The translations under genes were made by a program, and so were the position numbers. Source: JAUXIQ01 sp030620925 [NCBI: Nitrospinota bacterium] (GTDB lineage Bacteria > JAUXIQ01). Taken from it: 12,415 bases of DNA. Below the pieces are notes generated by a model. The model saw only the letters and a list, made by a program, of their open reading frames with translations. It did no database searches and was not told the origin of the DNA. Positions 3,638 through 12,415 of the stretch are shown piece after piece; position 1 is the stretch's first letter; each line of letters begins with the position of its first letter. The stretch covers positions 1-12,415 of the forward strand of contig JAUXIQ010000020.1 of the NCBI GenBank assembly GCA_030620925.1. The letters run 5' to 3'.

Positions 3638-4735
3638 ATGAGTAGACTGATGGTGTCAGTTCTGTTGTTGTCGTTGGTTTTCGCGAGTTTCGGCTATGCG
3701 GAAGATAAGGAGGAGGCGGGGTTCAGCCAGCGTCTGAAGATGCTGGAGGAGCAGGTGCAGGATATTAAACACGGGGCTGAAGGAGGCACCGGCCTTAGGG
3801 TAAGCGGCTTTGTGGATGTCAGTTTCTTTTACGATGACAACGCCGGCTCTTCCAGTTTCAGCCTGGACGAGGTGGAGATCAATATATTCAAGGAACTGTC
3901 GGCGGGTATTTCGGCCAGGACGGACTTGAACTTCAGAAACGTGGATGGCAACCTTAACGCTGACGATATTCTCGAACAGGGATACATAACCTTCAGGCTG
4001 CCCATCGCCGAGCCCCTCGATTTCACCTTCGGAAAATTCAACGCCCCTATCGGCTTTGAGCTCCTGGACCCTGTGGATATGTTTCAATTCTCGCACGCAC
4101 TGGTCTTTAATCTGGGCATTCCCACCAACGTCACCGGTGTCATGCTGACCTCCAAACCCACCGACGCTGTGGATTTAAACCTTTACCTGGTCAACGGCTG
4201 GGACCAGCTCAGCGACAATAATAGTAACAAGACCGTGGGTGGGCGAGTAGGGTTCACCGTTTCCGAAAAAGTCGGCTTCGGTGTGTCGTTTATTTACGGC
4301 GCCGAGAGAGACAATGAGAACAGTGATAAACGGTTCGTGCTGGATTTGGACGCCACATTTAATCCTTTAGAATCGACGGTGGTCGGTTTTGAATTCAACT
4401 ATGGAACCGAGGAGCGTGTTCCCATTAGCCTCCCCCTCCCTGATAAGGATGCCGATTGGTTGGGGTTTTTAATCATGGTGCACCACGATTTAACCCCCTC
4501 GGCCGGTGTGACCCTGAGATACGATTTCTTTGACGATAAGGACGCCGGGAGGACGGGTACGGTTCAAAAGCTGCAGGCGGTAGCTTTGGCCCTTACCTTG
4601 AGCCTGAGTGATGGGGCAGGGGTCCTGGCAGAGTATCGGCACGATTGGTCAGATGTTGATTCCTTTGTTCTGGCCGACGGCGGTATGGACGACAGCAACG
4701 ATTCTCTGGCCCTCGAATTTACCTACAGTTTCTGA
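3638..4735 (+). CDS. BBP2/OmpL-like outer-membrane beta-barrel porin
   Basis: This 365-residue exported protein has a signal peptide (hydrophobic VSVLLLSLVFASF, probable cleavage after GYA near residue 21) and then a charged, coiled-coil-like stretch (about residues 24-45, QRLKMLEEQVQDIKH). The remaining 300-odd residues show alternating amphipathic strands. The segment FGKFNAPIGFELLDPVDMFQFSHALVFNLGIP resembles the putative beta-barrel porin-2 family (PF07642). The last residues EFTYSF end in Phe with alternating aromatics, the usual signal for the BAM machinery. The ribosome-binding site GAGGAGA lies 7 nt before the ATG. It is the first gene after the sigma-54 promoter and lies 23 nt before the PII gene, so it is probably a nitrogen-induced channel for ammonium or small nitrogen compounds. 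The substrate is inferred from context only. Confidence 0.85.
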   Translation: MSRLMVSVLLLSLVFASFGYAEDKEEAGFSQRLKMLEEQVQDIKHGAEGGTGLRVSGFVDVSFFYDDNAGSSSFSLDEVEINIFKELSAGISARTDLNFRNVDGNLNADDILEQGYITFRLPIAEPLDFTFGKFNAPIGFELLDPVDMFQFSHALVFNLGIPTNVTGVMLTSKPTDAVDLNLYLVNGWDQLSDNNSNKTVGGRVGFTVSEKVGFGVSFIYGAERDNENSDKRFVLDLDATFNPLESTVVGFEFNYGTEERVPISLPLPDKDADWLGFLIMVHHDLTPSAGVTLRYDFFDDKDAGRTGTVQKLQAVALALTLSLSDGAGVLAEYRHDWSDVDSFVLADGGMDDSNDSLALEFTYSF

Positions 4736-4758
4736 TGTTAACGGTGGAGACTTAAGCG

Positions 4759-5097
4759 ATGAAAAAGATCGACTGTGTGATTAAGCCGTTCAAATTGGAA
4801 GATGTAAGAGAAAAATTGTTAAGTCTTGGTGTCTCGGGGATGACGGTTAGCGAGGTTAAAGGCTTCGGGCGGCAGCAGGGCCACAAAGAGTTGTACCGCG
4901 GTGCCGAGTACGAGGTTAATTTCGTGCCCAAGGTGCGCCTGGAGGTTGTGGTCCAGGATGAGATGCTCGACCAAGCCGTGGAAGCCGTGGTGGAGGCCGC
5001 TAAGACAGGTGAGATAGGCGACGGGAAAATTTTTATATTCCGGGTTGAGGAAGTAGTGCGCATTCGCACCGGTGAGCGGGGCCCGGCCGCCCTTTAA
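4759..5097 (+). CDS. glnK: PII signal-transduction protein, GlnK type
   Basis: This 112-residue, full-length PII protein is expected to form trimers that bind ATP/ADP and 2-oxoglutarate and to plug the ammonium channel when nitrogen is plentiful. The T-loop reads GHKELYRGAEYEVNF with Tyr46 and Tyr51, so the uridylylation site (Tyr51) is intact. Residue 54 is Asn, as in E. coli GlnK, where GlnB has Asp. Gln39, the B-loop TGEIGDGKIF (83-92) and the C-terminal RIRTGERG are conserved. The ribosome-binding site GGTGGAG lies 9 nt before the ATG. Its position directly before an amt gene supports GlnK, although GlnB cannot be excluded by sequence alone. It is probably co-transcribed with the porin from the sigma-54 promoter. 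Confidence 0.95.
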   Translation: MKKIDCVIKPFKLEDVREKLLSLGVSGMTVSEVKGFGRQQGHKELYRGAEYEVNFVPKVRLEVVVQDEMLDQAVEAVVEAAKTGEIGDGKIFIFRVEEVVRIRTGERGPAAL

Positions 5098-5155
5098 TCC
5101 ATCAACCATAGCTAAGGGTTGCAGGATGCCCGTAACGGTTTCTCGGAGATAGGAT

Positions 5156-6508
5156 ATGAGCGATTACAGAAAATTAGCGATAGCCGGTGTTTCAACCTTA
5201 ATAATGGTAGTGGGCGTCTTATTACTGCCTTTGCTGGCAGAGGAGGCTCAGCCCACTCTTCAATCGAATGCTGAAGGGATAAAGACGGTCCAGATCAACG
5301 CCAACTATGTATGGATGTTGGTGGCCGCCTTCCTGGTCTTTTTCATGCAGGCGGGTTTCGCCATGGTGGAAGCCGGATTCACCAGAGCCAAGAACGCCTG
5401 TAACATAATAATGAAGAACCTGCTGGATTTCTCCATGGGCTCCATCGGCTACTGGATGTTCGGCTTTGCCATCATGTTCGGGATTAACAGGACGGGGTGG
5501 TTGGGCACTTCCGGGTTCTTTTTCTCCGATTTCGGTTTGGATAAAGACCCCTGGGTCTTCGGTTTCTGGATGTTCCAGGTAGTTTTTGCCGCAGTGGCGG
5601 CTACTATAGTTTCCGGAGCCATGGCGGAGCGAACCAAGTTCGCCGCCTACCTCGTATATAGTTTCGTGATAACCGGGCTCATCTACCCCGTCTTCGGAAG
5701 CTGGGCCTGGGGCAGCTTGTATAAAGGTTCAGGCTGGTTGGAAAACCTCGGGTTCATAGATTTCGCCGGTTCAACCGTCGTACACAGCGTCGGCGGCTGG
5801 GCAGCGCTTGCAGGGGCCATGGCGCTGGGGCCGAGGATAGGTAAATATTCTAAGGCCGGAAAGCCGTTGCCCATACCGGGCCACAATATCCCCCTGGCTG
5901 CCCTGGGGGTTTTTATCCTTTGGTTCGGTTGGTATGGGTTCAACCCTGGAAGCACCACCGCCGCTTCTCCGGAGATTGCCTCTATAGCGGTCAACACTAC
6001 GCTTGCCGCTTCCGCCGGGGGGATACTGGCTATGGTCACCGCCTGGTTGAAATACCGCAAACCTGATATAGGGATGACCCTCAACGGCACCCTGGCGGGC
6101 CTGGTGGGTATCACCGCCGGCTGTGCGAACGTAACACCCCGAAGCTCCGTCTTGATAGGGGCCGCAGCGGGGATAATCGTGGTGTTCTCCGTGCTTTTCT
6201 TCGAGAAAAGGAAGATCGACGACCCGGTGGGAGCAATCTCCGTACATGCTATCGCAGGCGCGTGGGGAACCTTTGCCGCCGGGTTATTAAACGCAGAAGG
6301 CACAAGCCTGCACATACTGGGAGTTCAACTGCTGGGAATAGGCGCCGCCTTTGCCTGGGCTTTTCCCACCTCTTATCTTATGTTCAAGATAATAGACAAG
6401 ACAGTGGGTCTTCGGGTATCTGAAGAAGAGGAACTGGAAGGACTCGACTTCGGCGAACACAGGGCCACCGCCTATCCCGATTTCCAACAAACAACAATCA
6501 AGCTTTAG
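5156..6508 (+). CDS. amt: Ammonium channel/transporter, Amt family
   Basis: This 450-residue inner-membrane protein conducts ammonium and is normally a trimer. An N-terminal hydrophobic segment (residues 8-28), possibly a cleaved signal, precedes the Amt core. The core starts at NANYVWMLVAAFLVFFMQAGFAMVEAGF and has about eleven membrane spans. Hallmarks are SGAMAER, DFAGSTVVHSVGG (first pore His), LWFGWYGFNPGS, and DDPVGAISVHAIAGAWGTFAAGL (second pore His). The cytoplasmic tail GLRVSEEEELEGLDFGEH is the conserved coupling region that responds to PII. It follows glnK by 58 nt with a GGAGATAGGAT ribosome-binding region, in the classic glnK-amt order. No strong terminator is visible downstream. 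Confidence 0.96.
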   Translation: MSDYRKLAIAGVSTLIMVVGVLLLPLLAEEAQPTLQSNAEGIKTVQINANYVWMLVAAFLVFFMQAGFAMVEAGFTRAKNACNIIMKNLLDFSMGSIGYWMFGFAIMFGINRTGWLGTSGFFFSDFGLDKDPWVFGFWMFQVVFAAVAATIVSGAMAERTKFAAYLVYSFVITGLIYPVFGSWAWGSLYKGSGWLENLGFIDFAGSTVVHSVGGWAALAGAMALGPRIGKYSKAGKPLPIPGHNIPLAALGVFILWFGWYGFNPGSTTAASPEIASIAVNTTLAASAGGILAMVTAWLKYRKPDIGMTLNGTLAGLVGITAGCANVTPRSSVLIGAAAGIIVVFSVLFFEKRKIDDPVGAISVHAIAGAWGTFAAGLLNAEGTSLHILGVQLLGIGAAFAWAFPTSYLMFKIIDKTVGLRVSEEEELEGLDFGEHRATAYPDFQQTTIKL

Positions 6509-6600
6509 GATTAAGATATTCCGTAAAATGATTACCTGGAGATAGAAGTAATGTAAGGAAAAAAGAAAGTGCATAGGGTAAAAACCTTCTGGTTAATAGG

Positions 6601-6629
6601 TTGAAAAGTTTGCGTGCATCGGATAAGAT
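6601..6629 (+). promoter_or_regulatory. Possible sigma-70 promoter of the AOR cassette
   Basis: TTGAAA (6601-6606), a 17-base spacer and TAAGAT (6624-6629) form a plausible -35/-10 pair about 75 nt before the first AOR gene. The -10 box matches only four of six consensus bases. The surrounding 201-base gap (6509-6709) is AT-rich compared with the genes and shows no terminator for amt, so read-through from the nitrogen cassette is also possible. Confidence 0.4.
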
Positions 6630-6698
6630 TATACGCCTCAGTAGCTAGGGGTGATAATAAGGGAAAGATAAACAATCCTTTTTATTCAACGCACTACC

Positions 6699-6705
6699 GG
6701 GAGGG
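6699..6705 (+). promoter_or_regulatory. Ribosome-binding site fixing the start of the first AOR gene
   Basis: GGGAGGG lies 4 nt before ATG 6710. It favours this start over an upstream in-frame ATG at 6614, whose 32 extra residues have no resemblance to the family. Confidence 0.75.
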
Positions 6706-6709
6706 AATT

Positions 6710-8497
6710 ATGGCCTATGCTGGAAACATATTGAGGGTAAACCTCTCCACCGGCCAGGCGGCCAGCGAGGAGCTGGACGGAAAGAAAGCCTACGACTATA
6801 TCGGGGGCCGGGGCCTGGCGGCCAAGATACTCTACGACGAAATAGACCCCAAAACAGACCCCCTGGGGGCGGACAATAAAATCCTTTTCGCCACGGGCCC
6901 CCTCACAGGCACGCCCGTGCCTGCTGCTTCGCGCTACATGGTGGTGACCAAATCTCCACTGACCGGAGCCATCGCCTGCTCCAACTCGGGTGGTTTTTTC
7001 CCCGCAGAGCTTAAGTACGCCGGTTACGATATCGTGCTTGTAGAGGGGAAGGCCGCGGAACCGGTCTACATATGGATAAAAAACGGTGAGGTGGAGATCA
7101 GGCCCGCAAAGGATATCTGGGGCAAGACGACCCACGAGGCTGAGGATATTATCATCGCCGAGACCGACCCTGACGCCAAAGTCTGTTCCATCGGCCCCGC
7201 GGGGGAGACCATGGTGCGCATCGCCTGTGTGATAAACGACAAACACCGCTCTGCGGGCAGGAGCGGTGTAGGGGCGGTGATGGGTTCCAAGAACCTCAAG
7301 GCCATAGCCGTGCGGGGAACCGTGGGGCTCAAGCCCGCCGATAGTGAGGCGTTCAGGGCGGAATGCCTGAGGCTCGTAAAGCATGCCTCGAACCATCCCG
7401 CCGTCCTGGCCCTGCGCGCCAACGGCACCACCAACGGAGTCAACATCGCCAACAAGTTCGGCGTTTTCCCCACCAGGAACTACAAGAGCGGCGTCTTCGA
7501 AAAGTATCAGGAGATAGGGCCGGAGAAGTTGCACAGGACGGTTTTCGTGAGGGCGCGGGCCTGCGCCGGTTGTCCCGTGGCCTGCAAACGGGTAACCAGG
7601 CTGGATACTGATAAATACCAGGGTGCGGGCGAAGGCCCCGAATACGAGACCCTCTACTCTTTCGGGGGAATGACCGGCGTGGACGACATCTACGCCGTCA
7701 CCAAGGCGAACTACATTTGCAACGAGCTGGGGATGGACACCATCTCCGCCGGGGCCACAATAGCCTGCGCCATGGAGATGTTCGAAGAAGGCCACATTTC
7801 CGAGGAGCAGGTGGGGCGGAGCCTCAACTTCGGTGACCCGGAGGCCATGGTGGAAATGCTGGAAAAGATGGGGCGGCGCGAGGGCTTCGGGGACTTAATG
7901 GCCGAAGGCTCCTTCCGCATGGCGGAAGAGTTCGGCGTTTCTCATCTATCCATCTCGGTCAAGGGACAGGAGCTTGCGGGCTGGGGCACCAGGGGCTTCA
8001 AGGGCATGGGCCTCAATTACGCCACGGGGAACCGCGGCGCATGCCACACCAAGGGCAACACCATGGGGATGGAGCTGTTCGGTAAAATGGACGCCTTGGC
8101 CACAGAGGGCAAGCCCCAGTTGATCGCCGGAGCGCAGGATGCAACGGCCGCTCTGGATTCCACAGGCCTGTGCCTGTTCATAAACGGGGTTATTAAGCCG
8201 AAAGACGTCATCTCCCTGCTGAAGACCGGCACGGGAAACGAATACGACGAAGAATCGTACGCCAGGGCCGGAAGCAGGATATGGAACATAGAGCGCATGT
8301 TCAACATAGGGGCGGGGTTCACCGCCGATGATGATACCCTTCCCAGGCGCCTGTTGGAGGAGCCCATGCCGGAAGGTCCCGGCCAGGGCCAGGTGGTGGA
8401 GCTGGACGCCATGCTTCCTGAGTACTACCAGCAGAGGGGATGGGACGCTAAAGGAAAGCCGACCAAGGAGAAGCTCAAAGAATTGGGCATTAGCTGA
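6710..8497 (+). CDS. Tungsten-type aldehyde oxidoreductase large subunit (first paralogue)
   Basis: This 595-residue protein belongs to the aldehyde:ferredoxin oxidoreductase family, whose members carry a tungsten-bis-pterin and one [4Fe-4S] cluster and interconvert aldehydes and carboxylic acids. Cluster ligands are C285, C288 and C292 (CAGCPVAC) and C488 in DSTGLC. The cofactor motif NELGMDTIS spans 338-346 with D343. Candidate catalytic residues E313 (in PEYE) and H446 (NRGACH) sit at or near the positions of Glu313 and His448 in the Pyrococcus enzyme. The N-terminus MAYAGNILRVNLSTG is typical. The protein is clearly a paralogue of the product at 9111, sharing well over half its residues by eye. 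It lacks a dedicated small subunit and probably uses the ferredoxin encoded 128 nt downstream. The natural substrate is not readable. A BamB-type role is a less likely alternative. Confidence 0.93.
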   Translation: MAYAGNILRVNLSTGQAASEELDGKKAYDYIGGRGLAAKILYDEIDPKTDPLGADNKILFATGPLTGTPVPAASRYMVVTKSPLTGAIACSNSGGFFPAELKYAGYDIVLVEGKAAEPVYIWIKNGEVEIRPAKDIWGKTTHEAEDIIIAETDPDAKVCSIGPAGETMVRIACVINDKHRSAGRSGVGAVMGSKNLKAIAVRGTVGLKPADSEAFRAECLRLVKHASNHPAVLALRANGTTNGVNIANKFGVFPTRNYKSGVFEKYQEIGPEKLHRTVFVRARACAGCPVACKRVTRLDTDKYQGAGEGPEYETLYSFGGMTGVDDIYAVTKANYICNELGMDTISAGATIACAMEMFEEGHISEEQVGRSLNFGDPEAMVEMLEKMGRREGFGDLMAEGSFRMAEEFGVSHLSISVKGQELAGWGTRGFKGMGLNYATGNRGACHTKGNTMGMELFGKMDALATEGKPQLIAGAQDATAALDSTGLCLFINGVIKPKDVISLLKTGTGNEYDEESYARAGSRIWNIERMFNIGAGFTADDDTLPRRLLEEPMPEGPGQGQVVELDAMLPEYYQQRGWDAKGKPTKEKLKELGIS

Positions 8498-8503
8498 TTA
8501 TGA

Positions 8504-8566
8504 TGCACGATGCGCGAGAGGGGGCTTGGTTCATACCGCCCCTCACGATGTATCTAGCATCCTGCA
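8504..8566 (+). repeat. Long imperfect stem-loop between the first AOR gene and the ferredoxin gene
   Basis: Outer arms TGCACGATGC (8504-8513) and GCATCCTGCA (8557-8566) pair with one mismatch. Inner arms GAGGGG(G)C (8518-8525) and GCCCCTC (8538-8544) pair with one bulge, and a small GGT/ACC pair lies near the loop. There is no T-run after the stem, so it is not a classical terminator. An mRNA-processing or stabilising element within the operon is plausible. Confidence 0.5.
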
Positions 8567-8625
8567 GGGTGAATAAAACGTAAACTTTCAGGGACCAAAA
8601 ACCTTTAAGAGGGAGGCGATTAGAT

Positions 8626-9114
8626 ATGAGCAAGATTCTCTGGATGCATCCTGACAAGTGTACGGGGTGTAAGTTGTGTGAAGTAGCCTGTTCATTCAAG
8701 AAGTATGATGAGATCAATCCCTCCAAATCACGCATCAGCACGGTGATTTACGAGTCGCCCCCCTTCTACGTGGCCATGGCCTGCCCCCAGTGCGACGACC
8801 CCTGGTGCGCGAATGCCTGCCCATCTGCCGCCCTGGAGAAGAACCCCGAGGACGGCATAGTGCGGGTCAATGAAGACCGCTGCGTGGGCTGCAAGATGTG
8901 TGTGCTGGCCTGCCCCTTCGGTGCCATCGAGTATGCCCCCGAGGAGAAGATAGCGGTCAAGTGCGACTACTGCGAAGGCCAGCCCGAGTGCGTGGAGTTC
9001 TGCCCCACCGCCGCCCTGGAGTTCAAGGACGCCGACGAGGGCGGGGCCGGGCAGAAAAAGCGGAGTCTGGCCGATACGTTGAGGAAAGCTTACATGGAGG
9101 GGGGGTCGCTATGA
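8626..9114 (+). CDS. aorA: Four-cluster polyferredoxin, AorA-like electron-transfer subunit
   Basis: This 162-residue cytoplasmic Fe-S protein has 16 cysteines in four groups: C12, C15, C18, C22; C53, C56, C61, C65; C86, C89, C92, C96; and C113, C116, C122, C126. That is the HycB/DmsB-type arrangement for four [4Fe-4S] clusters. No Tat or Sec signal is present, so it works in the cytoplasm. A charged C-terminal tail (about 132-162) follows the clusters. The gene overlaps the next AOR gene by ATGA, so the two are translationally coupled, and the pair matches AorA-AorB of the Aromatoleum AOR, where the small subunit forms an electron wire. BamC-like or formate-hydrogenlyase-like ferredoxins are sequence relatives, but the neighbours favour AorA. 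A GGGAGGCG ribosome-binding site precedes the ATG. Confidence 0.9.
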   Translation: MSKILWMHPDKCTGCKLCEVACSFKKYDEINPSKSRISTVIYESPPFYVAMACPQCDDPWCANACPSAALEKNPEDGIVRVNEDRCVGCKMCVLACPFGAIEYAPEEKIAVKCDYCEGQPECVEFCPTAALEFKDADEGGAGQKKRSLADTLRKAYMEGGSL

Positions 9115-10901
9115 GTTACGCAGGAAAACTTTTACGGGTTGACCTGTCCAGCGGGAAGATTTCCACGGAGAACCTGAGCGCTTCTCTTCGAGACGAATAC
9201 ATCGGCGGGCGGGGGATGGCCTCCAAGATTCTCTACGACGAGATCGACCCTGCCGTCGATGCGCTGAGCCCTGAAAACAAACTCATTCTAACCACCGGCC
9301 CCCTCACCGGTACATCGATGCCCGGGGGGAGCAGATACATGGTGGTGGCCAAATCACCGCTCAGCAATACCGTTGCCTGTTCCAATTCCGGTGGTTATTT
9401 CGGCCCGGAGCTGAAATACGCCGGCTACGACATGATAGTGTTTGAAGGCAAGGCCGATAAACCCGTTTATCTTTTTATAAAGAACGACCAGGTCGAGATT
9501 CGGGACGCCGAACACCTGTGGGGAAAGTCCGTGCCTGAGACGGAGGAAGCCCTTCTTCAGGAGACCTCCCCCGACGCCAAAATCTCCTCAATCGGTCCGG
9601 CGGGTGAGAAGCTGGTGAGGTTCGCGGCGGTGATGAACGACAAGCACCGGGCCGCGGGCCGCAACGGCGTGGGTGCGGTGATGGGTTCCAAGAACCTGAA
9701 GGCGGTGGTGGTGCGCGGCACCAACAGCCTTAAAATGGCCGATACCAAGGCCATGAGAGAGGTGTCGCTTAGAACTCTGGCCGCCATCAAGGCCAGTCCC
9801 ATGACCGAGTTGTTCCAGTCTTTCGGCACCACCATGGCCGTGGACGTGAAAAATTCCCTGGGGCAGTTCCCCACCAGAAACCATCGAGAGACTGTCTTCG
9901 AAGGGGCCGGAAATATAAACTCTACCGCGGTCGGCGAGAAAGTGCTCGTCAGGAACAAGGCGTGTTTCGGCTGCCCCGTCGCCTGCGGGCGTGTGACCAA
10001 GGTGGACACCCCGCAGTATTCCGGTTCCGGGGAAGGCCCTGAATACGAGACCATCTGGTCCTTCGGCGCGGCTTGCGGGGTGGACGATATTGAGGTAATT
10101 ACCCAGGCCAACTACATCTGCAACGAGATGGGTATGGACACCATCTCCGCCGGGGCCACCATCGCCTGCGCCATGGAGTTGGCCGAGGAAGGGCATATAT
10201 CCGAAGACGTAGTGGGCAGAGAATTGCGGTTCGGGGATGCCGAGGCCATGTTGGAGCTTTTACAGAAGATAGTGGACAGAGAAGGTTTCGGCGACATACT
10301 GGCCGAGGGCAGCTATCGCATGGCACAGGAATACGGCCATCCCGAGCTGGCCATGACCGCCAAGATGCAGGAGCTGCCGGCCCATGGGAGCCGGGGCGCA
10401 AAAGGGCAGGGCCTGGCCTACGCCACTTCCAACCGCGGGGGCTGCCACCTGCGGGGCCCCATGTATTACATCGAGAGCTTCGGCAGGTTCGAGCAGCTGG
10501 ACGCCCTTTCCACTGAAAAGAAAGCCCCCTGGCTCAAGACCCTTCAAGACCAGGTGGGCATAACCGATTCCATGGGCCTCTGCCTCTTCGTCCCCCACGA
10601 GCCCGAAGACGTTTACGCCGCTTACGTCGCCGACACCGGCTCCAAGCTCAGCCCTGAAGACCTGAACAGGGTCGGGGAGCGTATCCATAACCTGGAGCGC
10701 GTGTTCAACCTCAAGGCGGGCCTCACCGGAGCGGACGACGCACTGCCTCCCAGGATCACCTCGGAGCCTGTGCCTGATGAGGGACCGGCCAAGGGGCAGG
10801 TGGTTGAGCTGGACCAGATGCTCCCCGAATATTACGATGTGCGGGGCTGGGATGCCAAGGGAGTGCCCACCAAAGAGAAACTGAAGGAGCTGGGTTTATA
10901 G
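9111..10901 (+). CDS. aorB: Tungsten-type aldehyde oxidoreductase large subunit, AorB-like (second paralogue)
   Basis: This 596-residue AOR-family catalytic subunit is predicted to bind tungsten-bis-pterin. Ligands for the [4Fe-4S] cluster are C285, C288 and C292 (CFGCPVAC) and C491 in DSMGLC. NEMGMDTIS (338-346) carries D343, and E313 (PEYE) and H446 (NRGGCH) are the candidate catalytic pair. The start at 9111 (MSYAGKLLRVDLSSG) overlaps the ferredoxin stop and has a GGAGG-rich ribosome-binding site. An open frame extends upstream to 8898 but lies wholly inside the ferredoxin gene and is not coding there. It differs from its paralogue mainly around 447-485, just before the GLC motif, where it carries a few extra residues (PMYYIESFGRFEQLD...). 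That region flanks the catalytic His and may tune substrate choice. Confidence 0.94.
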   Translation: MSYAGKLLRVDLSSGKISTENLSASLRDEYIGGRGMASKILYDEIDPAVDALSPENKLILTTGPLTGTSMPGGSRYMVVAKSPLSNTVACSNSGGYFGPELKYAGYDMIVFEGKADKPVYLFIKNDQVEIRDAEHLWGKSVPETEEALLQETSPDAKISSIGPAGEKLVRFAAVMNDKHRAAGRNGVGAVMGSKNLKAVVVRGTNSLKMADTKAMREVSLRTLAAIKASPMTELFQSFGTTMAVDVKNSLGQFPTRNHRETVFEGAGNINSTAVGEKVLVRNKACFGCPVACGRVTKVDTPQYSGSGEGPEYETIWSFGAACGVDDIEVITQANYICNEMGMDTISAGATIACAMELAEEGHISEDVVGRELRFGDAEAMLELLQKIVDREGFGDILAEGSYRMAQEYGHPELAMTAKMQELPAHGSRGAKGQGLAYATSNRGGCHLRGPMYYIESFGRFEQLDALSTEKKAPWLKTLQDQVGITDSMGLCLFVPHEPEDVYAAYVADTGSKLSPEDLNRVGERIHNLERVFNLKAGLTGADDALPPRITSEPVPDEGPAKGQVVELDQMLPEYYDVRGWDAKGVPTKEKLKELGL

Positions 10902-10910
10902 CCTGAGGTC

Positions 10911-10942
10911 ATGATGCGGAGGAAAAACGGGAAACGCATCAT
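10911..10942 (+). repeat. Perfect 8-bp inverted repeat in the aorB-aorC spacer
   Basis: ATGATGCG (10911-10918) and CGCATCAT (10935-10942) are exact reverse complements around a purine-rich 16-base loop that contains most of a GGAGG sequence. The stem ends 20 nt before the aorC ATG, so it could influence translation or mark a processing site. It shares the ATGATGC...ATGTATC pattern with the spacer after the first AOR gene. Confidence 0.5.
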
Positions 10943-10953
10943 GTATCGTGAAA

Positions 10954-10958
10954 GGGAG
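10954..10958 (+). promoter_or_regulatory. Ribosome-binding site fixing the aorC start
   Basis: AAGGGAG ends at 10958, 4 nt before ATG 10963. This favours that ATG over the in-frame GTG at 10948, which would add five unconserved residues and start inside the spacer. Confidence 0.65.
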
Positions 10959-10962
10959 CACC

Positions 10963-12228
10963 ATGACCGGTAAAACCAGACAGGTGATTATAGGGAACAG
11001 CGGGGCGGGCTTGAGCGCCCTGAAGGCCATAAGGCAGATCGACGCCGACTGCCCCATAACCGTCATCACCGACCAGACCGAGAGGGCCTATTCGCCGGTT
11101 CTCACTACGTATTACATCGCCGGGAAGGTCCCCAGGGAGAAGCTCTTCATAACCGATGGAGCGTTTTACAGCGACCTGGGAGTGGACCTCGTGGCAGGGA
11201 AAAGAGCGGAGGCCGTGGACACAGCCTCTCAGAAGGTCGTCCTCGAAGACGGTTCCAAAATAGATTACGATAACCTGCTCATAGCCACCGGAGCTTCCGC
11301 CAAGAAGCTCTCCATCCCCGGTGGTGATCTGCCGCAGGTGCGCACGCTGAGGACTCTGGAGGACGCCGAGGCAATAAGCGACCTGGCTCAGAAAGGGGTC
11401 AAAGATATTGTGGTGCTGGGCGCCGGGCTGGTCAGCCTTCAGACGGCCGATGCCGTTTATGCTGAGGGCATGAACCTCACCTTTCTGGTGGGCTCCAATC
11501 AGGTCCTCTCGCAGAACGTGGATAAGAGCTGCGCCGAGATAGTAAAGGCACAATTGGAATCGAAGAAGGCCGTCATACATTTCGGCACTGATGCGGAGGC
11601 CATCGAGGAGAACAAGGGCAGGGCGGTGGTCGTCTCCAAAACGGGAGAGAAATATCCGGCGGACGTGGTGATAGTCGGAAAGGGGGTGGACCCCAACGTC
11701 CAGCCGGCACAAGAGGGCGGCATCGCGGTTAACAGGGGCATCCTGGTGGATGAATACATGAGAGCCGGATCGCCCAACGTATACGCCGCCGGGGACGTCG
11801 CCGAAGGCCCCAGCTTTCATACCGGTCAGCCCGAGGTGATGGCCACCTGGTATAACGCATGCAATCAGGGCCGGATAGCGGGCATGAATATGGCCGGTAA
11901 AGAGGAGCCTTTCATAGGGGGCCTGAACCGCAATATCACCTCCGTTTTCGACACCACCGTGGCTTCGGTGGGCGCGGTCAAAAGGCTGGAAGGCGGTGAT
12001 GCGGAAGAAATCGTGATAGACAGGGCCGCCGAGGGTATATACAGGAAGCTGTTGCTGCAGGATGACGTGGTGCAGGGAGCGGTTCTCATGGGCAGGATAA
12101 ACGACGCGGGCATGGCCTTGAACCTCATACAGAAACGGGTCAAAATATCGCCCCGGAGAGAGATGCCCGATAAGTCCTTAATGGACCTGCGCCGGGTATA
12201 CTGTGCCGGTGTTAACCCCTCTGCGTAA
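10963..12228 (+). CDS. aorC: FAD/NAD(P)-dependent oxidoreductase, AorC-like
   Basis: This 421-residue flavoprotein of the pyridine nucleotide-disulfide oxidoreductase superfamily most resembles rubredoxin or nitrite reductase NAD-linked subunits. An FAD-binding Rossmann motif, VIIGNSGAGLSA, is at 8-19, the ATG motif (LLIATGASAKKL) follows near 105, a second Rossmann motif, VVLGAGLVSLQTA, begins at 150, and the second FAD motif, YAAGDVAE, is at 274. There is no redox-active CxxxxC disulfide, so electrons presumably pass from FAD directly to Fe-S clusters. The second Rossmann motif reads GAGLVS, with Ser158 replacing the usual last glycine. Following aorA and aorB, it matches AorC, which links the tungstoenzyme to NAD+. 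The 61-nt gap to aorB holds an inverted repeat. Confidence 0.88.
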   Translation: MTGKTRQVIIGNSGAGLSALKAIRQIDADCPITVITDQTERAYSPVLTTYYIAGKVPREKLFITDGAFYSDLGVDLVAGKRAEAVDTASQKVVLEDGSKIDYDNLLIATGASAKKLSIPGGDLPQVRTLRTLEDAEAISDLAQKGVKDIVVLGAGLVSLQTADAVYAEGMNLTFLVGSNQVLSQNVDKSCAEIVKAQLESKKAVIHFGTDAEAIEENKGRAVVVSKTGEKYPADVVIVGKGVDPNVQPAQEGGIAVNRGILVDEYMRAGSPNVYAAGDVAEGPSFHTGQPEVMATWYNACNQGRIAGMNMAGKEEPFIGGLNRNITSVFDTTVASVGAVKRLEGGDAEEIVIDRAAEGIYRKLLLQDDVVQGAVLMGRINDAGMALNLIQKRVKISPRREMPDKSLMDLRRVYCAGVNPSA

Positions 12229-12270
12229 AGTGAAAATTTCCAAGCTGTTTTGAGAACGTCTCAAGTCGAT

Positions 12271-12307
12271 GCCGCCCTCACCCTGGTGGGGGCGGCACCA
12301 GTTTTTT
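12271..12307 (+). terminator. Rho-independent terminator after the AOR cassette
   Basis: GCCGCCC-T-CACC...GGTG-G-GGGCGGC (12271-12296) is a very stable GC-rich hairpin, with six T residues at 12302-12307. Five bases separate this stem from the T-run. A second, overlapping hairpin, CTGGTG (12283-12288) with CACCAG (12296-12301), ends directly at the T-run, so the two folds are mutually exclusive. Confidence 0.75.
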
Positions 12308-12351: not shown

Positions 12352-12415
12352 ATGCATGATCGAAAACCCCTTCACGGTATCCGCGTGATAGACCTTTGCG
12401 CGTTTCTCGCCGGGC
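12352..12415 (+). CDS. CaiB/BaiF-type (class III) CoA-transferase, N-terminal fragment
   Basis: Only the first 21 codons lie inside the window. They read MHDRKPLHGIRVIDLCAFLAG, matching the conserved start of class III CoA-transferases (typically PLxGIRVLDLxxxLAGP). Such enzymes move CoA between acyl-CoAs and free acids. The frame stays open to the right edge. The start at 12352 gives a typical N-terminal length, although its nearest AAGGA is 13 nt away. An in-frame ATG at 12319 has a better-placed GAGGG and would add eleven residues, so the start is uncertain. The gene follows the AOR cassette terminator and probably forms a separate unit, though related metabolism of organic acids is plausible. 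Confidence 0.8.
   Translation, partial: MHDRKPLHGIRVIDLCAFLAG

Follow-up and report, generated by a model that had tools for sequence, protein, structure and literature searches.

Tungsten oxidoreductases (WORs) of Class III consist of the subunits WorL, WorS and WorN according to a classification of 4,064 WorL sequences (PMC13328260), and AorABC of Aromatoleum aromaticum (WorLSN; PDB 8c0z) is a Class III enzyme with a single catalytic subunit. Here we analyze a stretch of 12,415 nucleotides from a Nitrospinota bacterium (the window), which is an entire contig from a 2.5-Mb draft assembly (445 contigs, 89.5% complete), and describe a cluster in which a second gene for the large subunit of an aldehyde oxidoreductase (AOR) lies upstream of aorA-aorB-aorC. 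We call this upstream copy AorB', because AOR1 already denotes another Aromatoleum protein in a review (PMC12096430). We lean toward reading the cluster as encoding a tungsten oxidoreductase of the NAD-linked Class III type whose two catalytic subunits have diverged; these would have arisen by lineage-specific duplication of aorB and would both likely work on one AorA.

The window shares with A. aromaticum AorABC the order aorA-aorB-aorC, the subunit families, a four-cluster AorA with a C-terminal tail and a flavoprotein partner, but unlike either large subunit of the window, the A. aromaticum enzyme keeps Tyr443 (Tyr427 in Pyrococcus furiosus numbering), Tyr468 and Phe514. The A. aromaticum operon adds aorD and aorE, as described in PMC6365974; neither was searched for in the window's genome. 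Among solved structures, the Class IV enzyme AmWOR1 of Acetomicrobium mobile (PDB 9mqx) has the large and small subunits nearest to ours in sequence; it differs from the window in its canonical YYFF pocket and in a three-subunit bifurcating module that replaces AorC (PMC13328260). WOR5 (ASOR) of P. furiosus resembles AorB in carrying His at the Tyr427 position, and WOR4 resembles AorB' in carrying Trp there; however, both fall in other clades, WOR5 also lacks the second-shell Thr and WOR4 lacks one cluster Cys. WOR5 is described as a heterodimer with a polyferredoxin and WOR4 as a homodimer, both without AorC (PMC12096430).

Results

Four genes follow one another on the forward strand between positions 6710 and 12228, each as an open reading frame: AorB' (6710–8497, 595 amino acids), aorA (8626–9114, 162 amino acids), aorB (9111–10901, 596 amino acids) and aorC (10963–12228, 421 amino acids). 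The start of aorB overlaps the stop of aorA by 4 nucleotides. Both large subunits match PF02730 and PF01314 over their full length and above cut-off (E values from 3e-83 to 3e-143), and in the PDB they come closest to the bifurcating WOR of A. mobile, followed by the AOR of P. furiosus and AorB of A. aromaticum; these matches and the alignment predict that AorB' binds a tungsten-pterin cofactor and a [4Fe-4S] cluster. AorA, the polyferredoxin subunit, has its Pfam match among 4Fe-4S dicluster proteins, four motifs of four Cys each for [4Fe-4S] clusters, and best PDB matches to 9mqx_E (1.1e-38) and 8c0z_C (5.9e-38). AorC is a FAD/NAD(P)H-type flavoprotein subunit of the Pyr_redox_2 family, for which the top NCBIfam model is PadH, at a score under the PadH cut-off. 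By sequence, aorA-aorB-aorC thus joins a WorL, an adjoining four-cluster WorS and a FAD-binding WorN, as in Class III, and the Pfam, PDB and Cys-motif matches bear out the initial annotation of 8626–12228 as an AorA-AorB-AorC architecture. Its description of 6710–8497 as an intact AOR large subunit without its own ferredoxin or flavoprotein also held, no such gene for AorB' being found within the window.

AorB' and AorB are 57.9% identical and are sisters in three trees, with a Shimodaira-Hasegawa-like approximate likelihood ratio (SH-aLRT) of 97 in a tree of 66 rows, chosen from 96 by omitting near-duplicate and distant sequences, and bootstrap/SH-aLRT values of 100/96 and 100/97 in maximum likelihood trees of 60 and 47 rows. 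In the 60-row tree, the pair lies within a 58-row clade that holds the AORs of P. furiosus, Clostridium autoethanogenum and A. aromaticum (100/99), and outside a 16-row clade that we call AorA-less, as no AorA was found next to the AOR in its loci (two of them end within 1 kb upstream). The structures 1aor and 9g7j were classed as AorA-less, and 8c0z and 9mqx as AorA-partnered, from papers and not from gene context. An approximately unbiased (AU) test on 51 rows rejected joining AorB' to 15 AorA-less rows (p=0.019), and with it membership of AorB' in that clade; the same was true for AorB (p=0.012). A family tree was among the checks that the initial annotation had proposed, and in ours AorB' is a sister duplicate of AorB.

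The two copies have diverged with a dN/dS of about 0.23 (dN 0.38, dS 1.65, near saturation). An AlphaFold2 model of AorB' built from 36 sequences has a mean pLDDT of 95.0 and a pTM of 0.94, and its nearest chain by fold is 9mqx_D (Z 61.4, root mean square deviation 1.0, 591 aligned residues), followed by 9g7j_A (Z 60.1), 1aor_A (60.0), 1b25_A (54.2) and 8c0z_A (49.9); beyond seven AOR-family entries, all matches had Z<4. We considered whether AorB' could be a pseudogene and rejected this on its intact frame, its complete set of cluster Cys residues, the dN/dS and the confident predicted fold.

On the forward strand, our scan showed neither a terminator-like nor a promoter-like match within the 128-nucleotide gap between AorB' and aorA (8498–8625), which folds into a hairpin without a T-run (fold z −1.77). 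The top match of the terminator scan is an intrinsic terminator 3' of aorC (12270–12297, forward strand) with a 12-pair stem and a TTTTTT tail; across the region, 16 matches were found against 8.9 expected by chance, and weaker forward-strand matches lie inside AorB' (6971–6994) and inside aorC (11463–11479). A promoter-like match, TTGAAA-17-TAAGAT, lies 5' of AorB' on the forward strand (6601–6629) and is not above chance (5 found versus 3.5 expected in the region). GC content at third codon positions (GC3) is 0.73–0.79 in the four AOR genes versus 0.65 in the three upstream genes, which encode a porin, PII and Amt. Co-transcription of AorB' with aorABC would be compatible with the terminator, gap and GC3 data, although unproven. 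Along 3638–8497, GC3 jumps from 0.65 in the upstream genes to 0.77 at AorB', a step that may reflect a separate origin or the expression level of the AOR genes. We also tried and rejected a known RNA element: nothing in the window matches Rfam at the gathering score, and the gap has the fold z given above.

AorB' most likely docks on AorA in our reading, a sharing that the initial annotation had raised as possible, but several observations weigh against it. AorB' precedes aorA across the gap, whereas in the other lineage with paired AORs, described below, both lie between aorA and aorC. The end branches of both window copies are long (0.44–0.59), and support for the branching point of the pair is weak (88/51 with 60 rows, 88/28 with 47). 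The AU test is compatible with grouping AorB' with the AorBs of genome G418 and family f191 instead (p=0.176), G418 being the best outside match found for AorB' (60%). Of the 123 alignment columns with conservation of 95% or more, AorB' keeps 115 and AorB 121. A further comparison used the 40 rows that fall outside the AorA-less clade (33 directly AorA-partnered, 7 second copies from double clusters): 181 columns are conserved in 90% or more of them, of which AorB' keeps 164 and AorB 169, the lowest of the rows keeping 165. Elsewhere in the genome, which has nine PF01314 matches in all, a second AorA (52% identical; locus L159, 3178–3660, contig C36) lies 30 nucleotides from a contig end, with one Cys of the fourth and last motif replaced by Gly and a Cys four residues further. 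A second AorC-like flavoprotein (38% identical; locus L160, 1883–3196) is encoded on contig C385, on which there is no AOR.

In an alternative that we regard as possible but rather unlikely, AorB' is an independent enzyme, either Class I-like with a soluble ferredoxin or paired with the second AorA, and stands next to aorABC only through tandem duplication of aorB. The absence of an AorA directly 5' of AorB', the gap, the second AorA and the several further AORs of the genome favor it, and Class I WORs function without a small subunit (PMC13328260). Set against these points are the position of AorB' outside the AorA-less clade in both tree and AU test, and the lack of a terminator match in the gap. 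The closest outside relatives of AorB', the G418 and f191 AorBs, also sit directly behind an aorA, so that under either topology AorB' most likely descended from an AorA-partnered subunit. Nor is AorB' enriched in residues typical of the AorA-less clade: it matches 8 of 43 such columns and AorB 13. The column counts thus indicate no drift of AorB' toward the AorA-less type, with slightly more conserved positions lost than in AorB. The 16 columns specific to rows outside that clade, too few to mark an interface, are matched at 7 positions by AorB' and at 5 by AorB, and the stretch with the AorC-contact Pro287 of A. aromaticum is missing from both window copies and from five other relatives compared. 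For the shared AorA, then, the sister relationship, the placement outside the AorA-less clade, the GC3 and gap data and the f112 clusters below speak in favor, while the second AorA counts against forced sharing and leaves room for an independent enzyme.

We then compared the active sites. Both copies retain the cluster Cys residues 285, 288, 292 and 488 or 491 and the tungsten-pterin residues Arg75, Asn92, Gly94, Arg180, Asp343 and Asp483/486; in place of A. aromaticum Ile508 and Val510, AorB' and AorB have Leu, and AorB' has Ser for the backbone ligand Ala182. Thr243, Glu313 and His448 (P. furiosus numbering; the His is residue 446 in the window copies) are also kept, but the second-shell Tyr427 is replaced by Trp425 in AorB' and His425 in AorB, and the Asp that follows is Gly in both. 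Neither copy thus has the four-residue second shell of AOR sensu stricto (Thr243, Glu313, Tyr427, His448). The initial annotation had stated that the catalytic residues are kept in both paralogues, which stands for the Cys residues, Asp343, the Glu and the His; the loss of Tyr427 in both is a new finding. In a 101-row alignment, all 80 rows that share 46% identity or more with one of the copies have Tyr427, and 19 more distant rows have Tyr (8), His (7) or other residues (4). The pocket has changed as well: Tyr468 and Phe514 of A. aromaticum become Asn450 and Gly493 in AorB', and Pro450 and His496 in AorB, giving pocket quartets (positions 443, 468, 511 and 514 of A. aromaticum) of WNFG and HPFH, while 17/20 single aorABC enzymes have YYFF. 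Because the two heads differ in second shell and pocket, they most likely act on different substrates.

In the review (PMC12096430), the proposed mechanism gives Tyr427 a role in positioning the aldehyde, and His occupies this position in WOR5/ASOR and in AOR Cf; on the latter precedent, the placement of the window copies in the AOR tree holds without implying aldehyde activity. The same source lists WOR4, with Trp at this position, as an enzyme without detected activity, although it has also lost a Cys ligand. That likeness favors a further alternative, which we judge unlikely: the two copies may be swapped by growth condition as homogeneous AorAB or AorAB' complexes that never mix, or the Trp-bearing AorB' may be catalytically silent and structural only. 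AorB', however, retains the four cluster Cys and the equivalents of Thr243, Glu313 and His448 and is under purifying selection relative to AorB, so it fits a working enzyme. An altered second shell was also seen in second AORs of three other genomes (loci L143, L144 and L145 in G320, G041 and G187), in which Tyr427 is followed by His, not Asp (AGYHP motif).

To place the window pair among other double-AOR clusters, we turned to other genomes. The 40 other genomes first sampled, and those listed from a 386-genome set, share no rank below domain with the window's genome, a depth at which the exact order AorB'-aorA-aorB-aorC is untraceable. AorB matched 51/386 genomes at E≤1e-120, its own included, and with up to three candidates scored per genome, the window and three genomes from a single genus had adjoining AOR pairs. 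In the phylum of one of these (G111), 14/16 genomes have two adjoining AORs, all of family f112; the order aorA-aorB1-aorB2-aorC is found in 11/11 loci of sufficient length (L084, L086, L088, L129–L135 and L138), although in one of them aorC runs off the contig. In the fifteenth genome (G398), a contig starts with a partial AOR, then an AOR and aorC, and the sixteenth (G397) has a single aorA-aorB-aorC. Like the window, the f112 clusters have two AOR large subunits per one AorA and one AorC; unlike it, their copies do not form a sister pair, Tyr427 is retained in both, and one head has a canonical pocket. The B1 quartet is YYFF in 11/11 rows, and the B2 quartets (15 rows, 14 from f112 and 1 from f262) are YWFA in 13, YWFT in 1 and YWFF in 1.

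In the 60-row tree, single AorBs from family f85 form the sister group of f112 B2 (100/97). We rejected the possibility that the f112 cluster is the same ancestral pair as the window's, as B1 and B2 are placed elsewhere in the trees. Since the window copies are sisters and B1 and B2 are not, double-AOR clusters evolved separately at least twice by these phylogenies, and each combines heads with differing pockets, both being atypical in the window. In the phylum of G355, 14/95 genomes match AorB' at E≤1e-185, with one match apiece. Among 14 AOR loci from another search, some of them incomplete, none shows a second AOR adjoining the first; in locus L019 the two are about 6 kb apart. In the open-licence literature searched (supplements excluded), we found no account of a double-AOR operon in the text available, and word searches of the accessible sections of the WorL classification (PMC13328260) returned nothing about two large subunits.

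Beyond the cluster, Amt and PII genes lie 5' of AorB', and a gene that starts at 12352–12415, past the terminator, begins MHDRKPLHGIRVIDLCAFLAG and presumably encodes a CoA-transferase family III protein, which it resembles. Other AOR loci show different surroundings. On three Azospirillum plasmids (L090 7513–16707, L091 7489–16745, L092 5512–13789), aorA-aorB-moaD is followed by genes for NuoL, NuoB, complex-I subunit 1 and NuoC; in L090 and L091, Ni-hydrogenase large-subunit genes come after NuoC, where the L092 sequence ends, and hypA is nearby. The Azospirillum AOR seems to be wired to a membrane hydrogenase-like module instead of AorC. In two Pseudomonadota metagenome-assembled genomes (L011 6208–7977, L013 6105–7976), the gene directly 5' of an AOR gene encodes a DAO-type FAD oxidoreductase that carries an AorA-like domain at its C end as a fusion.

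Discussion

We favor a model in which aorB duplicated in the window's lineage to give AorB' and AorB, both of which would dock on the same AorA polyferredoxin and would act on different substrates. Electrons would pass from the heads through AorA to the FAD of AorC and on to NAD+. The AorA tail extends about 25 residues past the last cluster motif, and the 40 other aligned AorA rows likewise continue beyond this motif; a tail of this kind in A. aromaticum AorA is a helix required for filaments (PMC10413684). The window complex may form filaments as well. A bolder version, a mixed filament with one AorA wire and two tungsten heads, seems improbable to us: one head would oxidize while the other reduced, or worked on a non-aldehyde substrate, and AorC would balance the remainder via NAD.

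The Class III tungsten oxidoreductases in the literature examined have one kind of catalytic subunit. Relative to these one-head enzymes the gene arrangement of the window is new, and its two-headed mechanism is likely but unproven. The f112 clusters provide a second, conserved case of the two-AOR arrangement. The window pair, lacking the Tyr427 used in the proposed aldehyde-oxidation mechanism, offers natural variants for testing the role of this residue. That two lineages separately joined two diverged heads to one wire and one flavoprotein suggests that the wire is a modular platform.

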